Shown: positions 1,545 to 20,004 of the stretch, in pieces
How the letters are laid out: each line of letters begins with the position of its first letter
How positions within the stretch are numbered: the first letter of the stretch is position 1
Source of the DNA: a virus
Direction: 5' to 3' (one strand)
Virus record (IMG/VR): IMGVR_UViG_3300042731_000701
Coordinates: 1 to 23,148 of that record
Length of the DNA: 23,148 bases
Position numbers and translations under genes: made by a program
Notes under the pieces: generated by a model
The model's input: the letters and a program-made list of their open reading frames with translations, nothing else
Told to the model about the DNA's origin: nothing
The model's database searches: none

Positions 1545-1790
1545 TTATTGTTTTGGTTTTTCAACTACTAGTGGAATGTTTAACCTAACTAAGATAGCGT
1601 TTAGAGAATCTTGAATCCTATTCATGTCTTGATCAATCTTCTTCTCGTTCTTTTCAATAGCTTTAGCATTAACGGTAGTTACAGTTTTTACAGCAGCTAT
1701 ATCGGGAGTGTTCTTTACAAAAACCTGAGTAGCGGTACTTCCAACAAGTAAACTTAGAAGACTTACAATAACTGGTTGTTGCCATGCCAT
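1545..1790 (-). CDS. Small single-pass membrane protein, possible holin or spanin-like
   Basis: An 81-residue protein. Residues 6-26 (PVIVSLLSLLVGSTATQVFV region) form one hydrophobic segment. A polar, charged stretch follows (about residues 35-68, rich in K, E, N and D with hydrophobic residues at heptad-like spacing) that looks like a short coiled coil. It is the last gene of the late operon; its ATG shares one base with the stop of the large internal virion protein (TAATG), so translation is probably coupled. Small one-TM proteins at this position in podoviruses are often holins or inner-membrane spanins, but no diagnostic motif or partner lysis gene is visible here. The gene is clear; the function is only suggested. 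Confidence 0.8.
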   Translation of the reverse strand: MAWQQPVIVSLLSLLVGSTATQVFVKNTPDIAAVKTVTTVNAKAIEKNEKKIDQDMNRIQDSLNAILVRLNIPLVVEKPKQ

Positions 1791-4700
1791 TAGCGGCCTC
1801 CTCTACTTGCAGATCTTCCTGAAGATCGCGAAGCATTTCTTCCTCTTTTCTTAGCTTTGTGGATTACACGTAATTCATCCAATAGCTTTTGTTTTAAAGG
1901 AAATCCACCAACCATCTGCACAGCAGCCCTAGCTATAGGCTTAACAGATTTAGACTCTGTAGCCTGTACTGTACTACGTGCAAGATTAGTAGCATCGCCT
2001 GCTGCTGGACCTAACAAAGCTCCTACAGCACGTCCAGGATTATCTGAAGCTAAACCACTAAATATATCCATAGCAATACCAATACCTCCAACAGCAATCA
2101 TACCACGAAGTACTCGTTCCGTCATAGTGAATTCGCGATCATCTGCGGTTATTGTTCGTCTTAGTTCATCGACTCCCATTCCTAGTGGAGTACTAACAGT
2201 TAGGTATGTAACTAACGGCATAAAATTCCCATCAAGGGCTTCTTTAACAACATTATCTTTAATAAATTTCCCTGCATTAAACGCGAATGATTTAAACTTA
2301 GTAAACAGGCGACCATAAGGTCCTCGCCAAGCAAGAGGCAACTTACTCATATCATTAGTAAAGTTCACAATATTGGAGAACTTGTGCATAGCTTGTAGTG
2401 CATCGCCTTCTGTAAACTCTCCTACAGATTTGTTAGAGTCTAGCCCAAGTTCGTCTAAAGCCTTCTTAACCCATGCTTGTTGTTTAGCCAGATCTTTACC
2501 ACCAATCTCTCCGGCCTCGATCATCGCCTTACGATTCATGACACTCTCGAAATGTGCACGGCCCATATTAGCGGCAAGTATGCGTTGCCATTGTTCAGCC
2601 TTTACAAACCCTACCGATCTAAGAAAAGATGAAGGATCGTTGATCGGATCGAATACGCTAGGTAATGAGTTTATGATCTTGTGATTTAAAGACCCCTCTC
2701 CAAGTACCTGCAACACCGTAGCCTCATAAGCTGCTGCTGATCGTAACGCCGCATCCCTGGAGAACTTACCTTCTTTTCTAAACAATCCTTGAATGCCCTT
2801 TCTATATGCATTAAGTAAAGAAAGAGGATTCTTATTGTATTTTGCTAACTGAGTAAGACCAAATACAGTTGCTTGAGTAACATTAGGTATCTGTGACAAA
2901 GATAACTTAAGTGTCTCAAATGCATTTATAGAACCAAGGATTTGCCGACTACTTTCAGATATAGCTAATTGCTTAGCTATTGCCATTCCTCTAGAATCGC
3001 CCACAGAAGAATAATAAGTATGACTAGCCACATCGAATGCATGTGCTCCGTGTTGATTTTTAAGGGTATTAGCTAACGAGTTAAAGATTTCATCATTAGC
3101 TCCGAACTCGTCTGCATAAGCAAACCTCTTTGCGACATCGTGAAAATACTCTGTCAAGACTACAGTAGGATCATCCAATAAGAAAGGATTTAATAGTTGT
3201 TCGTTCTTAGGAAATAACACTCTTCGTTTTTCAAGATGGTGTGATCTTTGTTTAGGTGCTACGTTTTTTCGCTTCGATAGCAGCTTTAAGGCTGCGTCTC
3301 GGGTCATAATGTATTTGCCATTTTTGAAACTAAAGAAATCTCCAAGTTCCCCAACCTTGCCATGCGTGATGTGCTCTAATATATTTTCAGCATCTAGCTT
3401 ATCAAATTGCTGAGAAGTTAAAGTATCCACCCACAGAGATTTCCCTTCCTTGGTAGCAAGGTAAGGATCATTATAGACACGAGGCCAATAAGGTTTTTTA
3501 GAAAAAGCAGCAGCTTGATTTGAACTCATCATGCCGCGTCGTACAGCATGATTCAAAATGTGATCGAACTGTGCTTTAGTGATGGCCCGAAGATCCGCCA
3601 CTTTCTTAGATATGGGTTTAGTAATACCTTGCATGACCCTACTAAAATTAGCAAGTTCTTCTTTAGAAAATGTTCTAAGACGTTTAGATATAGGCAACAT
3701 CATAGTTGTGCCAAGCTTTTGAACGTCCATTTCTGCTTGGTCTAATTTCTTAGCTATAACCTCTCCAACATTCCCAAAAGCTCTTAATTGACGCTGTGGG
3801 CTAGCAATCTTATATCCCCAATAATTATCTTTAGCAACAGCCTCGGAGAATTCATGAAGATTCTTCTTAAGATATTGAGATGTCTTTCCTAAAACCTTAT
3901 AGGTTTTACCAGCCGTCCACGGCAACCCTAAACCTATAGCAGCTCCTACAATAGCGCCTTCTGGACCATCCATCTTATAACCAACAGCAGCACCTAACCC
4001 TGCTGCTCCCATATGAGCTAACAAATTGTTGCTTATATTCCCAGCTTGATTTTTAAATATCAAAGGAAGATCTGTTGAAGCTCCGGGCGATCTAGTAGGA
4101 TCGCCGCCAGCTTGTTGTTTAAGAAAGGCAACAGCAGCCTCATCTTCTTTATCAATAAGTCTGGAAGCCTTATCAAACATTTCAGGAGAAGGCAATGCGG
4201 GTAGTTCTTTTTTAGGACGTAAGACAGCCGGAACTTCTGGTGCCTCGACTCTACCAACTTCTTGTAATTCAATATCTTTAAGCAATTTAGTACGCTGAAG
4301 AGCTTGTTCTTCGGCTGTACCAGCATCTGAAAGAGCTCTAATTGTTTTAGCGTTTTTCGAGTAGTTCGCAAGAAAATCTTCTAGCTGCTTAAATTCCTTA
4401 ACACTTTCATATGTCAACGCTTTTTGCGAAGTTTCACTAGGAGCAGGCAAACGCTTTGCCGGAGGAGGTAACGCTTGCTGTTGTATAGTATTTAATTCAG
4501 GAACTAGCTCAGTACTAGCTGTCTTGGATTTAGGAACTAAAGCTGTCGATCCTTTATTGTTAAGATTTAATTTTGAATTAACCGTTTCAGCCAAAGCTTT
4601 CGGATCAGCGTCTTTTATATCGTATTTCTCTAATTGACGCGACATGTCCTCAGCTGTTACTGGAACACCGTCTCTCATCTTTCCAGTAATCCACTTAGTA

Positions 4701-5425
4701 AAGTGGTAGCCGCCCTTAATCAATAAGGGACCAGCAATAGCACCCAAACCAAAAGCCACAGCAGAGGATTCCGGATCTATTTGTCCGGAGCGTGCTAAAT
4801 CAAATACACTTTGATCGAAAGCAGCCAGAGACCCTGATGCAAGTGCTATTTTATAGATAGATGTAGCGGCACTTCCTACTGGAAGTGCTGTAGAAGGATC
4901 TGCAACTACCTTTCCAAAACCACCTAAAGTAGCTTCCCAAGAATCTTGCCATCGTGTACCATAGATGTTTGCAAACTCTTTTTGGAGCATTTGTTCATGT
5001 TGATATTGTTGTTTTTGGCGCACTGCTTCTTTATATTGATCTGCTTCTGCTTGCTTCTGGGCTTCCATAGGAAACCTAGCTGTGGGCTGCATTAAAGCTC
5101 CTGTAAAACTTCCAGGAGAACTTAACACAGACATAGACAAATCTTTAAGCGCCTTATTTTCAATACCAGCAGTAAGTTTTTCTAGGTGGCTTGATCTAGC
5201 CTGCCTGGAGTACTCATCTTGCAATGAGTTCTGTTGAGAGATATCAAATATATTCTGAGTAAGATTTTTTGCTCTTTTAAAACCAAACTTTAATTTCTCC
5301 ATGCTACTAGGAGTATCCATTTTACCTTCAGCGATTAAGCGCTCCTCTAGCTTAAGCTTAAGTTTTTGCTTAGCTTCATCTGGAAGATTATTAATTAGAG
5401 AAATAGTTTGTTTTGTAATAGGCAT
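1790..5425 (-). CDS. Large internal virion / DNA-ejection protein
   Basis: A 1211-residue protein, the largest in the window. I see no catalytic motif for transglycosylase or peptidase. The N-terminal ~160 residues are helical and Gln/Lys/Glu rich. A hydrophobic Gly/Ala stretch follows (about 165-240), then a Pro/Ala/Glu-rich linker (about 290-415). At 470-500 there is a glycine-zipper-like segment (GAAGLGAAVGYK, then GAIVGAAIGLG). More hydrophobic segments lie near the C-terminus (LVTYLTVSTPLGMGV; VLRGMIAVGGIGIAMDIF). The last 22 residues hold nine Lys/Arg and no acidic residue. Size, position after the tail genes and membrane-active segments fit the largest ejected proteins of podoviruses (P22 gp16 or T7 gp16 by role, not by visible homology). 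There is no clear Shine-Dalgarno, and the start is 11 bases after the upstream stop. Confidence 0.8.
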   Translation of the reverse strand: MPITKQTISLINNLPDEAKQKLKLKLEERLIAEGKMDTPSSMEKLKFGFKRAKNLTQNIFDISQQNSLQDEYSRQARSSHLEKLTAGIENKALKDLSMSVLSSPGSFTGALMQPTARFPMEAQKQAEADQYKEAVRQKQQYQHEQMLQKEFANIYGTRWQDSWEATLGGFGKVVADPSTALPVGSAATSIYKIALASGSLAAFDQSVFDLARSGQIDPESSAVAFGLGAIAGPLLIKGGYHFTKWITGKMRDGVPVTAEDMSRQLEKYDIKDADPKALAETVNSKLNLNNKGSTALVPKSKTASTELVPELNTIQQQALPPPAKRLPAPSETSQKALTYESVKEFKQLEDFLANYSKNAKTIRALSDAGTAEEQALQRTKLLKDIELQEVGRVEAPEVPAVLRPKKELPALPSPEMFDKASRLIDKEDEAAVAFLKQQAGGDPTRSPGASTDLPLIFKNQAGNISNNLLAHMGAAGLGAAVGYKMDGPEGAIVGAAIGLGLPWTAGKTYKVLGKTSQYLKKNLHEFSEAVAKDNYWGYKIASPQRQLRAFGNVGEVIAKKLDQAEMDVQKLGTTMMLPISKRLRTFSKEELANFSRVMQGITKPISKKVADLRAITKAQFDHILNHAVRRGMMSSNQAAAFSKKPYWPRVYNDPYLATKEGKSLWVDTLTSQQFDKLDAENILEHITHGKVGELGDFFSFKNGKYIMTRDAALKLLSKRKNVAPKQRSHHLEKRRVLFPKNEQLLNPFLLDDPTVVLTEYFHDVAKRFAYADEFGANDEIFNSLANTLKNQHGAHAFDVASHTYYSSVGDSRGMAIAKQLAISESSRQILGSINAFETLKLSLSQIPNVTQATVFGLTQLAKYNKNPLSLLNAYRKGIQGLFRKEGKFSRDAALRSAAAYEATVLQVLGEGSLNHKIINSLPSVFDPINDPSSFLRSVGFVKAEQWQRILAANMGRAHFESVMNRKAMIEAGEIGGKDLAKQQAWVKKALDELGLDSNKSVGEFTEGDALQAMHKFSNIVNFTNDMSKLPLAWRGPYGRLFTKFKSFAFNAGKFIKDNVVKEALDGNFMPLVTYLTVSTPLGMGVDELRRTITADDREFTMTERVLRGMIAVGGIGIAMDIFSGLASDNPGRAVGALLGPAAGDATNLARSTVQATESKSVKPIARAAVQMVGGFPLKQKLLDELRVIHKAKKRGRNASRSSGRSASRGGR

Positions 5426-5436
5426 AGGAATATGGA

Positions 5437-6417
5437 CTATTTAAAATTAATCGAATTTAAGTATTGATACAGTTCAGAAACATCTTGAATATTATCAGGC
5501 GCAGCCAGTGCCTCACTTATATCGTAATCATTTAGTTCTTCCTCAGTTCGAGGACGAAATACTCTACCCCCACCAAAAATGCCTGTGCTATCGAGTATCC
5601 ATTTACGTTGAATATATTGTTTAGCTTTATCAAAGTCCTTATACCGCTTGATGGCTTGTTCAAAATCTTTTTGTGTAACCAAGTATGAACTTTGATCTAC
5701 GTCATATTCTGGATTGCCAGAAGAGTCCACAGCCCCTAAATCTGGAAAAGCGTCCTTCATACTTGAAGCTAGTTCATTTTGTTCAGCCTTACGCGCATTA
5801 GCTCGTTCTTCTTGATCAAGAGCTTTTAAGTACTGTTGTGTTACGGCTGCAACGGCTGTATCGCCTCTAGCCATAGCGACTTGATAATCGTTAGCAAGCT
5901 TAGCTCGATTACTTTTATAAATATCAGGATCAAACTTAAGCTTTAAAGCTTCAAGCATATTTTTTAAACCGTACTCGTAATCAAGTAAATCTTTTGCTTT
6001 ACGCTGATCTACATCATTTACGACTTCGTCTTCAATAGCTTGAATGTTTTGCTTAGTGCGGCTGGAGTATATAGGTTCAAGTCCCCAAGACAACAACTTA
6101 TCCTTGCGTTCTTGAGGATCTAGGTTTGGATACGTGTTGTTAAAGAAAGCCGATGTCGCATCGTTATAAGACTTATAGTCTCCTACATTTTGCAACATTG
6201 AAGCAAGTTTTCTTTTGTCAGATAAATCCTTCTGTTTAGCAGCTTCGTCTTTGATGCCTTCAACTCGAAAAGGAGCTGTTTCCTTAGCCTCAGATGTCGC
6301 CTGTTCAGTTGATGCTGCTTGAGCTCTTTCCAAGCGTTTGCGCTCTAGATTTAAACTTCTAGGTTGAGGAGGTTCCCACGTACGAGCCAACAAAGAAAGT
6401 AGTGTATCACTAACCAT
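5437..6417 (-). CDS. Putative internal virion / ejection protein, unrecognised family
   Basis: A 326-residue soluble, highly charged protein, predicted mostly helical: long Lys/Glu/Gln/Ala-rich stretches such as residues 20-90 and 190-220 look coiled-coil prone. I see no membrane segment and no catalytic motif. It lies between the repeat-bearing ejection-type protein and the 1211-residue protein, matching the middle gene of the three-gene ejection cassette of P22 (gp7, gp20, gp16) by position only. The start is well supported: AGGAG lies 8 bases upstream of the ATG, and the stop of the preceding gene (TAG) is embedded in that Shine-Dalgarno. The ejection role is inferred from context. Confidence 0.72.
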   Translation of the reverse strand: MVSDTLLSLLARTWEPPQPRSLNLERKRLERAQAASTEQATSEAKETAPFRVEGIKDEAAKQKDLSDKRKLASMLQNVGDYKSYNDATSAFFNNTYPNLDPQERKDKLLSWGLEPIYSSRTKQNIQAIEDEVVNDVDQRKAKDLLDYEYGLKNMLEALKLKFDPDIYKSNRAKLANDYQVAMARGDTAVAAVTQQYLKALDQEERANARKAEQNELASSMKDAFPDLGAVDSSGNPEYDVDQSSYLVTQKDFEQAIKRYKDFDKAKQYIQRKWILDSTGIFGGGRVFRPRTEEELNDYDISEALAAPDNIQDVSELYQYLNSINFK

Positions 6418-6428
6418 TTATTAGTCTC

Positions 6429-7700
6429 CTATAAACCAAAAAAAGAACCTAAACTATCGCCAATAGATTGTAGTGAGCCTCCAATACTGCCCCAAGTACC
6501 TAACTTACCAGATGCATTAATTTGTCCTATATCAGCGCGCTGTGCTGCTAAAGTATCGTATCCACCAGTATAAAGATTAGATAAATTAGCACCTAATGTA
6601 CCGCTAGCATTGCTCAAACCACCAGCAGCAGTATAACCAAGATTAGCTAATCCTTGATAATTCTGTATTTGCTGTAATTGGTTTTGACGAACCATGTCGT
6701 ACTCATTAAGAGCACGAGTATACGCGTCAGTTTGTCTGCCGTAGTTAAGGTTCTGCAAATCAATATCTCTATTATAGCCTAGCTCGTTTACGCCTAATGC
6801 ACGATTAAATGTATCAGTTTGTCGTTGATAGCCTAATTGATTTTCATTAAGACCTATTCCATAAACATCCATTTGTCTGTTATATGCCGTCTGATTCTCA
6901 TCGCGAGAACGGCCATAAGTGTCTACTTGGCGATTGTACAATGTTTGATTAGCATTCATTGCTCGATCGTAAGTATCTACTTGACGATTATAACCAAGCT
7001 GGTTTTCTCCTAAAGCTGTAGTATACTTATCTTGATACTCTCCGAACTGTCTATTATACTCATTTTCATATTCTGTAGAAGCCAGACCTTGAGCGTAGTC
7101 AGTAAGACCTGCTACCCTATTTCCACTAAGCTTATAACCGCTTGCTGCCATTTGTCTGTCAACAGCCTGCAATCCTTGATTCAGACGGAAATTATATGAA
7201 TCAGTTGATCCTAATTGCGAAGCATCAAATGAAAAACGAGGCAACGATCCCAATGAATTATCTATATTAGGAGTATTGCCTAAGGAATTATCAATTCCGG
7301 GAAGATTTCCTAGTGATGTATTAACTTGTGGTAAACCGTCCAAACTTCCATTCACAGACGGAAGAGAATTTAGTGAGTATTTTGGATCTTTGACAGAGGT
7401 TTGTACAGTTCCATAATAGTGAAACGGTCTAGGATCATATCCTAAAACAGATTTTTCATATCCAGATATGCCTGTATTTCCTAATTGAATATACGGTGAC
7501 ATTAATTCAGTTTGTGTATCATAGGAGTTCTGTAACGCTTCAACAGATTTATCCATGCCCTCTTGTGTATAGCCCATAGCCGCTTCCACACCAGTGCGGG
7601 CTTGTTTTGTTGCTTGCTTTGATCCGTGCGCCCCTAAAAGACCTGTTATTCCTCCAGTAACACCGCTTACCAAATCTCCTAATCCACCTAATAAACCCAT
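6429..7700 (-). CDS. DNA-transfer / ejection-type virion protein with two tandem repeat arrays
   Basis: A 423-residue protein. The ATG at 7700 is preferred over an upstream in-frame TTG (7712) because GGAG lies 6 bases before it. The N-terminus is Gly/Leu-rich and could insert in membranes (MGLLGGLGDLVSGVTGG). Residues 109-158 are five 10-residue repeats around SLGNLPxIDN. Residues 171-216 carry the block YNFRLNQGLQAVDRQMAASG followed by SGNRVAGLTDYAQGLAS, which I recognise from phage DNA-transfer or minor tail proteins. Residues 237-337 are 18-residue repeats of the form YNRQVDTYxRAxxENQxx, then a Gly/Ser-rich C-terminus. By position and composition it corresponds to the small ejection proteins (P22 gp7 or T7 gp14 type). 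It is the first of three consecutive putative ejection genes. Confidence 0.85.
   Translation of the reverse strand: MGLLGGLGDLVSGVTGGITGLLGAHGSKQATKQARTGVEAAMGYTQEGMDKSVEALQNSYDTQTELMSPYIQLGNTGISGYEKSVLGYDPRPFHYYGTVQTSVKDPKYSLNSLPSVNGSLDGLPQVNTSLGNLPGIDNSLGNTPNIDNSLGSLPRFSFDASQLGSTDSYNFRLNQGLQAVDRQMAASGYKLSGNRVAGLTDYAQGLASTEYENEYNRQFGEYQDKYTTALGENQLGYNRQVDTYDRAMNANQTLYNRQVDTYGRSRDENQTAYNRQMDVYGIGLNENQLGYQRQTDTFNRALGVNELGYNRDIDLQNLNYGRQTDAYTRALNEYDMVRQNQLQQIQNYQGLANLGYTAAGGLSNASGTLGANLSNLYTGGYDTLAAQRADIGQINASGKLGTWGSIGGSLQSIGDSLGSFFGL
6690..6992 (-). repeat. Coding tandem repeat, 18-residue units
   Basis: Five 54-base units, encoding YNRQVDTYDRAMNANQTL, YNRQVDTYGRSRDENQTA, YNRQMDVYGIGLNENQLG, YQRQTDTFNRALGVNELG and, after a shortened unit, YGRQTDAYTRALNEYDMV. 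A more divergent copy precedes them. Codons for identical residues differ between units (for example CGT CAA GTA GAT versus CGC CAA GTA GAC), so the array is old at the DNA level while the protein pattern is kept. Periodic Tyr and Gln with charged positions suggests an extended helical rod. Confidence 0.9.
7227..7376 (-). repeat. Coding tandem repeat, 10-residue units
   Basis: Five 30-base units encoding SLNSLPSVNG, SLDGLPQVNT, SLGNLPGIDN, SLGNTPNIDN and SLGSLPRFSF. The consensus is S-L-G-N-L-P-x-I/V-D/N-N. Proline at a fixed position argues against a continuous helix and for a turn-rich or beta-solenoid-like spacer between the N-terminal region and the conserved core of the ejection protein. 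Confidence 0.9.
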
Positions 7701-7712
7701 TGTATTCTCCAA

Positions 7713-19644: not shown

Positions 19645-20004
19645 TTAATCTTCCTCGTTATCTCTTTTAGAATTATCTTTACAGATAATATCTTCATCAT
19701 TAAATAAAGCAAACTCTTCTCCTGAATCAGTATCTACTACCTTCTGACCAGCATATTTGTTTACTAAAACTTTATCGCCAATTTTGACCCACGGTCTTCC
19801 ATTCTTCTCGATTCCGCTGTCGTCAACATATCTAAAGGCTTGCCATGCTATGGGCCCAATAGCAACCACTGTCGCTCGCTGCTGCGCCCACTGAACTAAT
19901 TTTTCGTCTTGAGCGAGTATGATCCCTCCTGGAGTAACACGTTCAATATCGTCTAATTTTACTAATACTCTAAATCCTAATGGTTCTATACTAGTTTTAA
20001 TCAT
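19645..20004 (-). CDS. GroES-like co-chaperonin (Cpn10 family)
   Basis: A 119-residue protein of the GroES fold: IEPLGFRVLVKLDDIERVTP at the start, GGIIL (residues 26-30) as the mobile-loop tripeptide that docks on GroEL, then VVAIGPIAW, VKIGDKVLVNKYAGQKV and GEEFALFNDEDIIC. Bacterial GroES is about 97 residues and T4 gp31 about 111; the extra length lies mainly in the roof-loop region (about 52-72) and a charged C-terminal tail. It probably forms a heptameric lid on host GroEL and, by analogy with T4 gp31, helps the capsid protein fold. Its place between portal and scaffold/capsid genes supports this. The start overlaps the preceding gene by 8 bases. Confidence 0.93.
   Translation of the reverse strand: MIKTSIEPLGFRVLVKLDDIERVTPGGIILAQDEKLVQWAQQRATVVAIGPIAWQAFRYVDDSGIEKNGRPWVKIGDKVLVNKYAGQKVVDTDSGEEFALFNDEDIICKDNSKRDNEED

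Follow-up and report, generated by a model that had tools for sequence, protein, structure and literature searches.

In a gp7-family phage ejection protein, a modular spacer varies in length by whole helix turns, with few exceptions

A viral DNA fragment encodes a 423-residue protein belonging to PHROG 598, the family of the P22 ejection protein gp7, and this protein carries a 130-residue spacer that parses fully into modules of 7 and 11 residues. From one family member to another, nearly all length differences of the spacer amount to whole helix turns. Computation established the family membership, the module grammar, the selection on residues, the whole-turn length change at one site and the predicted helix. 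The family itself is known, and no description of the modular, phase-locked spacer within it was found in the portions of the open-licence literature consulted.

The window, i.e., the whole stretch of DNA analysed, is a 23,148-base IMG/VR fragment. The gp7-like gene lies at 6429..7700 on the minus strand and encodes 423 residues from an ATG at 7700, and an alternative TTG start at 7712, 12 bases upstream, would add four residues. The 427-aa open reading frame matches the 'DNA ejection' profile of PHROG 598 over residues 24-221 (E=1.8e-14), and P22 gp7 itself matches the same profile at 2e-95, in agreement with the initial annotation, which had called the product an ejection protein. As a predicted ejection protein, it probably enters the cell before the viral DNA does. 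Genes around it were recognised by profile matches as a head-closure Hc3/stabilisation protein (656 aa, 8.2e-23), the portal and the major head protein. The next gene (5437..6417, minus strand, 326 aa) had no family match in the profile search and is assigned by gene order only to the position of P22 gp20 and T7 gp15 (tunnel protein). The third gene (1790..5425, minus strand, 1211 aa) occupies the position of gp16 of P22 and T7 and shows a weak match to the virion structural protein family PHROG 684 (2.4e-06). The order of the window, which is adaptor-like, stabilisation/Hc3, three small genes, gp7-like gene, 326-aa gene and 1211-aa gene, agrees with the P22 order gp4-gp10-gp26-gp14-gp7-gp20-gp16. 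As in a P22 gp7-like family, the gene follows the stabilisation protein and precedes the genes at the gp20 and gp16 positions. The profile searches gave no match of the 423-aa protein to tape measure proteins, and its neighbours, the stabilisation/Hc3 gene and the genes at the ejection positions, are of podophage type; judged by this gene neighbourhood, the protein does not count among the tape measure proteins.

The nearest named phage by portal is Alcaligenes phage QDWS535 (40.8%), which has the gene order, a co-chaperonin and a ribonucleotide reductase in common with the window (locus L097, 13207-18853). The frame at 19645-20004 (minus strand) of the window looks by eye like a GroES-type co-chaperonin, and in QDWS535, as in two further records, a co-chaperonin is annotated at a similar spot following the portal gene. 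A second frame, at 57-1478 on the plus strand, opposite to the ejection genes and adjoining them, looks by eye like a ribonucleotide reductase, as is likewise annotated in QDWS535. The QDWS535 proteins at the three ejection positions had no detectable similarity to those of the window, and its ejection module may have been swapped or have diverged past recognition. Because these three proteins are dissimilar, the head module and the ejection module form a mosaic, and no unit count could be taken from QDWS535.

The array covers residues 215-344 (6669..7058, minus strand) when bounded by the conserved core of the family and the next conserved family motif, and its modules run 11,11,(7,11)x4,11,7,7,11. 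All of the 14 modules start with Tyr or Phe, none of 2000 composition-keeping shuffles parsed as well, and proline does not occur among the 130 residues. The conserved core before the array (YxFRLxQG...DYAQGLASxEYxN; 7041..7220, minus strand), which was found in three alignments, served as the left anchor. The right anchor IQNYQGLANLGYTAA (6624..6668, minus strand) aligns with YNRLSSLAGIGQTA of the relatives and scored 13.8 in a position-specific scan, against 8.4 for the second best position. The initial annotation had described five YNRQxDTYxRAxxxNQxx units at 6690-6992, and their coordinates, residues and count hold, but the units are not in tandem. Four of them are contiguous (6777..6992), namely YNRQVDTYDRAMNANQTL (6992-6939), YNRQVDTYGRSRDENQTA (6938-6885), YNRQMDVYGIGLNENQLG (6884-6831) and YQRQTDTFNRALGVNELG (6830-6777); the fifth, YGRQTDAYTRALNEYDMV (6743-6690), is separated from the fourth by the 11-residue unit YNRDIDLQNLN (6744..6776) and divides into two 7-residue modules plus 4 residues of the 11-residue module that follows, all on the minus strand. 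The 18-residue repeat is therefore real but had been mis-framed, since each unit is a 7+11 pair of the true modules and the array extends on both sides to 7058-6669. Self-matching of residues 201-345 (428-residue frame) gave a top lag of 18 with 45 matches and helical side peaks at 7, 11, 29 and 36, and Tandem Repeats Finder reported nothing at the array position. The mean base identity between the five 18-residue units is 0.54. Among their 85 residue-identical pairs the codons differ in 45, as compared to 43.1 expected for independent draws from the phage's own codon usage. The codons between units have thus been randomised while the residues were kept, which argues that the units are old and the residues under selection, and bears out the earlier proposal of long-term selection instead of recent slippage.

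Spacer lengths were read with a 15-column matrix of the post-spacer motif, scanned at every offset with the close relatives of the scanned protein left out. The first set comprised 80 distinct proteins, of which 79 were scanned and 68 were confident; L005 was missing from the scan because the left-anchor rule misplaced it (its spacer is 11 by eye). The 11 of 79 that were not confident were L009, L022, L024, L046, L053, L065, L067, L068, L070, L074 and L075, with L046 among them because it has no right anchor. The 68 confident lengths were 0 (14 proteins), 11 (32), 18 (3), 22 (10) and 29 (2), and the lengths 39, 47, 58, 101, 105, 119 and 130 were each seen once. Pam1, Pan3 and L058 scored 0, with 11 also possible, and the 39 of L056 is doubtful in view of the 11 of its close relatives, so the analysis below includes it once and omits it once. 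Without 39, the ten distinct non-zero lengths have a period of 3.61 residues with R 0.96, and none of 3000 random sets was as good; with 39 kept, R is 0.895 (1/3000).

The phase rule was written down before the held-out loci were fetched with other queries. The left anchor was missing from 12 of the 166 loci (0 or 11 by eye), and 86 of the rest were unique; 83 of these were confident, and the three below threshold were all read as 11. In these scans, which took the best 80 of 164 and the best 80 of 188 relatives and are not exhaustive, 82 of 83 proteins were in phase, and so were 37 of the 38 whose core is less than 70% identical to the first set. Most of the 83 again had lengths of 0, 11 or 22 (length 0 in 14). 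The query of the 164-relative scan had a spacer of 0 and may favour short spacers. The rule is broken by one protein with a length of 55, which is 0.28 turn off. A stricter rule that allows only sums of 7 and 11 fails in three held-out proteins with lengths of 4, 15 and 15, which are yet in phase. The four lengths new in the held-out set (4, 15, 51 and 55) are weakly significant by themselves (168/5000), and all 14 distinct lengths of both sets together give R 0.914 (0/5000).

At the other length-variable site of the family, which served as control, 69 of these proteins took 39 different lengths, with R 0.15 and 1889 of 2000 random sets as good. In the window protein this site holds a second repeat of five 10-residue units SLxxLPxVNx (7227..7376, minus strand; self-match peak at lag 10 with 22 matches), which AlphaFold2 predicts to be mostly non-helical with low pLDDT, and in the relative L020 it holds repeats of the form YGYDL...EYDxxRF. 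Spacer length was unrelated to how large the next gene is (rho -0.21, p 0.14, n=53). Since relatives with a length of 0 occur in both sets (14/68 and 14/83), the rod is not essential to the function of the family. A length change that keeps phase means that the residues flanking the spacer must keep their angle, which argues for a rod packed against something; a free helix or a tether would have no reason to do so.

The array of the window is unlike any other at the sequence level, and only the conserved core retrieves the family. Whole-protein tblastn against 50,697 phage records matched 22 records, none with 80% query coverage, and when 12 sequences were aligned, the array stood out as an insertion, absent from the 11 named phages or present in them in short form only. 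No relatives were found when viral contigs were searched with the whole protein or the array alone, nor when named phages were searched with the array alone. Queries with the conserved core gave 12 loci and then 68 loci in viral contigs. The single locus that a scan of genome contigs gave was rejected as an N-acetylmuramoyl-amidase-like protein (by eye) with a chance match over the motif. Most relatives have 0 to 2 modules. The closest one, L025, whose core is 62% identical, carries a 105-residue array of its own with 11 of 11 modules aromatic-first (0/2000 shuffles). Parses are less clean in L029 (6/11 aromatic starts, 74/2000 shuffles as good) and L036 (3/5, 216/2000), and the aromatic starts number 7/13 in L020 (4/2000) and 5/6 in L063 (1/2000). 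Outside the spacer, L029 and L036 are 87% identical, and their spacers of 101 and 47 residues differ by 54, i.e., three 18-residue units; related Vibrio and Shewanella phages have spacers of 11, 18 and 29, with differences of 7, 11 and 18 at 70-83% identity. In 17 spacers of at least 18 residues, clustered at 50%, aromatic pairs at lags 7, 11, 18, 22 and 29 were far above shuffles, and this enrichment persisted without the window and L025. In the same spacers, Arg stands at +2 from the aromatic residue at a frequency of 0.40 (0.10 overall) and Asn/Gln at +1 at 0.51 (0.26 overall). The initial annotation had named a unit number or pattern not conserved among relatives as what would speak against it; half of this is what we found, as the unit number varies (mostly 0 to 2 modules, and a 54-residue gap at 87% identity), while the pattern itself, i.e., modules, phase and YNR, is conserved. 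The 769-aa PHROG 598 relative L046 (2618-4924) has a long run of 11-residue [YW]DRN units, and lacks the right anchor and the usual glycine-rich tail at its end.

The helical rod proposed initially finds support in both the AlphaFold2 prediction and the locking of the family's spacer lengths to 3.6 residues. From 43 sequences, AlphaFold2 predicted helix at residues 193-302 and 312-400, with 121 of the 130 array residues helical, pLDDT 73-91 over residues 201-300 and pTM 0.32; the secondary structure of this model is credible and its packing is not. The helix is broken at 303-311, just before and into the unit YNRDIDLQNLN, with pLDDT <50 at 303-310, so any rod length is an upper bound. For L029 (36 sequences), helices were predicted at 274-338 and 343-463, with blocks up to 92 and 97 of 101 spacer residues helical. 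The aliphatic residues ILVM make up only 0.16 of the array, and the packing is accordingly not that of a classical coiled coil. On the module wheel, Tyr/Phe stands at 0 degrees (14/14), aliphatics mostly around 60, Asn/Gln around 300 and 120 and Arg/Lys around 180 (11/28), with Arg at about 200 degrees in 11 of 14 third positions. Tyr and Arg are thus on opposite faces and Asn/Gln flank Tyr, contrary to the earlier suggestion that Tyr, Arg and Gln line up on one face. The protein had no sequence match in the PDB up to E=1, the family profile searched up to E=10 matched only a TATA-box-binding protein (0.22), and a PDB fold search gave none at E 0.001 or better. A looser search returned generic coiled coils and helical hairpins with Z up to 9.5, a range considered common, and a viral fold library returned proteins annotated as 'DNA transfer' and as fibres, four of them at E 0.001 or better.

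We give about an even chance to the reading that the array forms a segment of a DNA-entry conduit, as a helical rod or barrel locked in register. A spacer within one long alpha-helix of a gp7-family protein would have been enlarged to 130 residues by stacked Tyr-first heptads and hendecads, and each copy would be a straight rod, up to roughly 195 A long for a rise of 1.5 A per residue. The rod may pack against its neighbours, be they further copies of itself or different ejection proteins, through faces that must keep the register, with Tyr and the aliphatic positions flanking it as the putative packing face and Asn/Gln and Arg as candidates for contact with a lumen or a partner. Several copies could form a helical barrel or sleeve, the head-proximal part of a conduit for DNA crossing the envelope. 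Gain or loss of whole-turn modules would alter the length of this segment without rotating its faces, and phages might thereby tune the conduit length to the geometry of envelope or tail.

Mutation alone may also give such arrays, if slippage or unequal recombination at a recurring YNR-coding motif duplicates modules, the helix tolerates any whole module and length has no function. The highly variable unit number, which differs by 54 residues even in the 87%-identical pair, fits this explanation, as do 11 and 22 as the commonest non-zero lengths and the likeness of both anchors to module starts (YNR...YNRL). We consider it unlikely because duplication of 11 residues gives multiples of 11, whereas 11 of the 14 distinct lengths are otherwise and still in phase, because the codons are fully randomised though Tyr (14/14) and Arg (11/14) are kept, and because lengths at the other expandable site of these proteins are not quantised.

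It is less likely again that the array is a rod acting inside the head, where the Arg/Asn/Gln face would bind packaged DNA or the portal barrel instead of lining a conduit. N+Q+R indeed make up 0.36 of the array and 0.15 elsewhere in the protein, and P22 ejection proteins are located close to the portal barrel, where they and the DNA compete for space (PMC8402733). However, acidic and basic residues are about equal in the array (D+E 0.13, R+K 0.11), and a DNA-binding helix by itself needs no whole-turn length changes.

A part of a trimeric coiled-coil tail needle or fibre that is not ejected is highly improbable. The homologue in Pseudanabaena phage Pam1, Pam1_12 (L094, 4530-5414), has been deposited as 'needle protein', and a fibre-typical endosialidase-chaperone tail is present in, or annotated for, some relatives; Pam1_12 nevertheless matches PHROG 598 at 3.8e-23, the PHROG 598 homologue of the sister phage Pan3 is annotated as an ejection protein with the needle encoded by another gene, and gp7 and the needle gp26 of P22 are separate genes. 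An endosialidase-chaperone-like C-terminal domain is present or annotated in L004 (2851-3762, Pseudomonas phage PAE2), in L079 (3755-4723) and in viral fold matches; this domain is usually found on tail fibres and is odd in an ejected protein. A disordered, low-complexity polar spacer that merely parts two membrane-active ends would suit the richness in N, Q, R, D and G and the low confidence at 303-310, and is scarcely credible given 0 prolines in 130 residues, the helix with pLDDT 73-91 over 201-300 and a 3.6-residue phase lock unexpected of a flexible tether.

The register-locked rod can be compared with known systems. P22 gp7 belongs to the same profile family and has the same gene position before two larger ejection genes, but it has 229 aa with no Tyr-first array evident by eye, whereas the window protein has 423 aa with a 130-residue array. 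P22 gp7 is present in about 12 copies, and a role in building the virion-proximal part of the conduit has been suggested for it (PMC8402733). T7 gp14 is the counterpart, a small first ejection protein with long helices; six copies form a channel after ejection, with two long antiparallel helices per copy (PMC11784390). Among the three ejection proteins, the gp14-like one was described as varying least in length, at <30% and 181-240 aa in 14 phages (PMC8954989), a picture not supported in our wider family sample, whose members far exceed this range.

The closest design to the array is the tube of phiX174 protein H, and the second closest a tape measure protein with [FW] markers. The H tube is made of a helix of hendecads followed by heptads (121 residues, 170 A) and its lumen is mostly Gln, Asn and Arg (PMC7354561); the window array resembles it in its full 7/11 parse and predicted helix. 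Module position 1 in H is mostly Gln and faces the lumen (N/Q/R/K 11/15), whereas it is Tyr/Phe in 14 of 14 modules of the window, where a different face could line a lumen. The H tube is a decamer and the window protein was modelled as a monomer only, and no sequence relation to H was found by protein and family profile searches against the PDB. Siphophage tape measure proteins have [FW] markers at 11 or 11-11-18 residues and a unit number that varies between phages (PMC3271669). The likeness lies in an aromatic marker every 11 or 18 residues, helical units and variable unit number, and the differences are a Tyr marker, free 7-residue steps, and an ejection-type protein of a short-tailed phage with no long tail.

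A bolder reading, which we hold to be rather unlikely, is that podophages have a tape measure of their own, with the gp7-family rod as a modular ruler and its length in whole turns setting that of the first conduit segment. The 7-11-18 grammar of Tyr/Phe/Trp would then be convergent with that of the siphophage tape measure and, with Gln, of microvirus H, as a shared answer to the need for rods to be unfolded during ejection and to reassemble in register afterwards.

Ejection proteins exist only transiently and are difficult to observe, and a strict length rule in many divergent phages points, from sequence alone, to this part of gp7 as a register-locked helix with contact at both ends of the insert. 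If this is right, one design rule would join podophage conduits, the phiX174 tube and tape measure proteins, and the length of a conduit would be readable from the gene.
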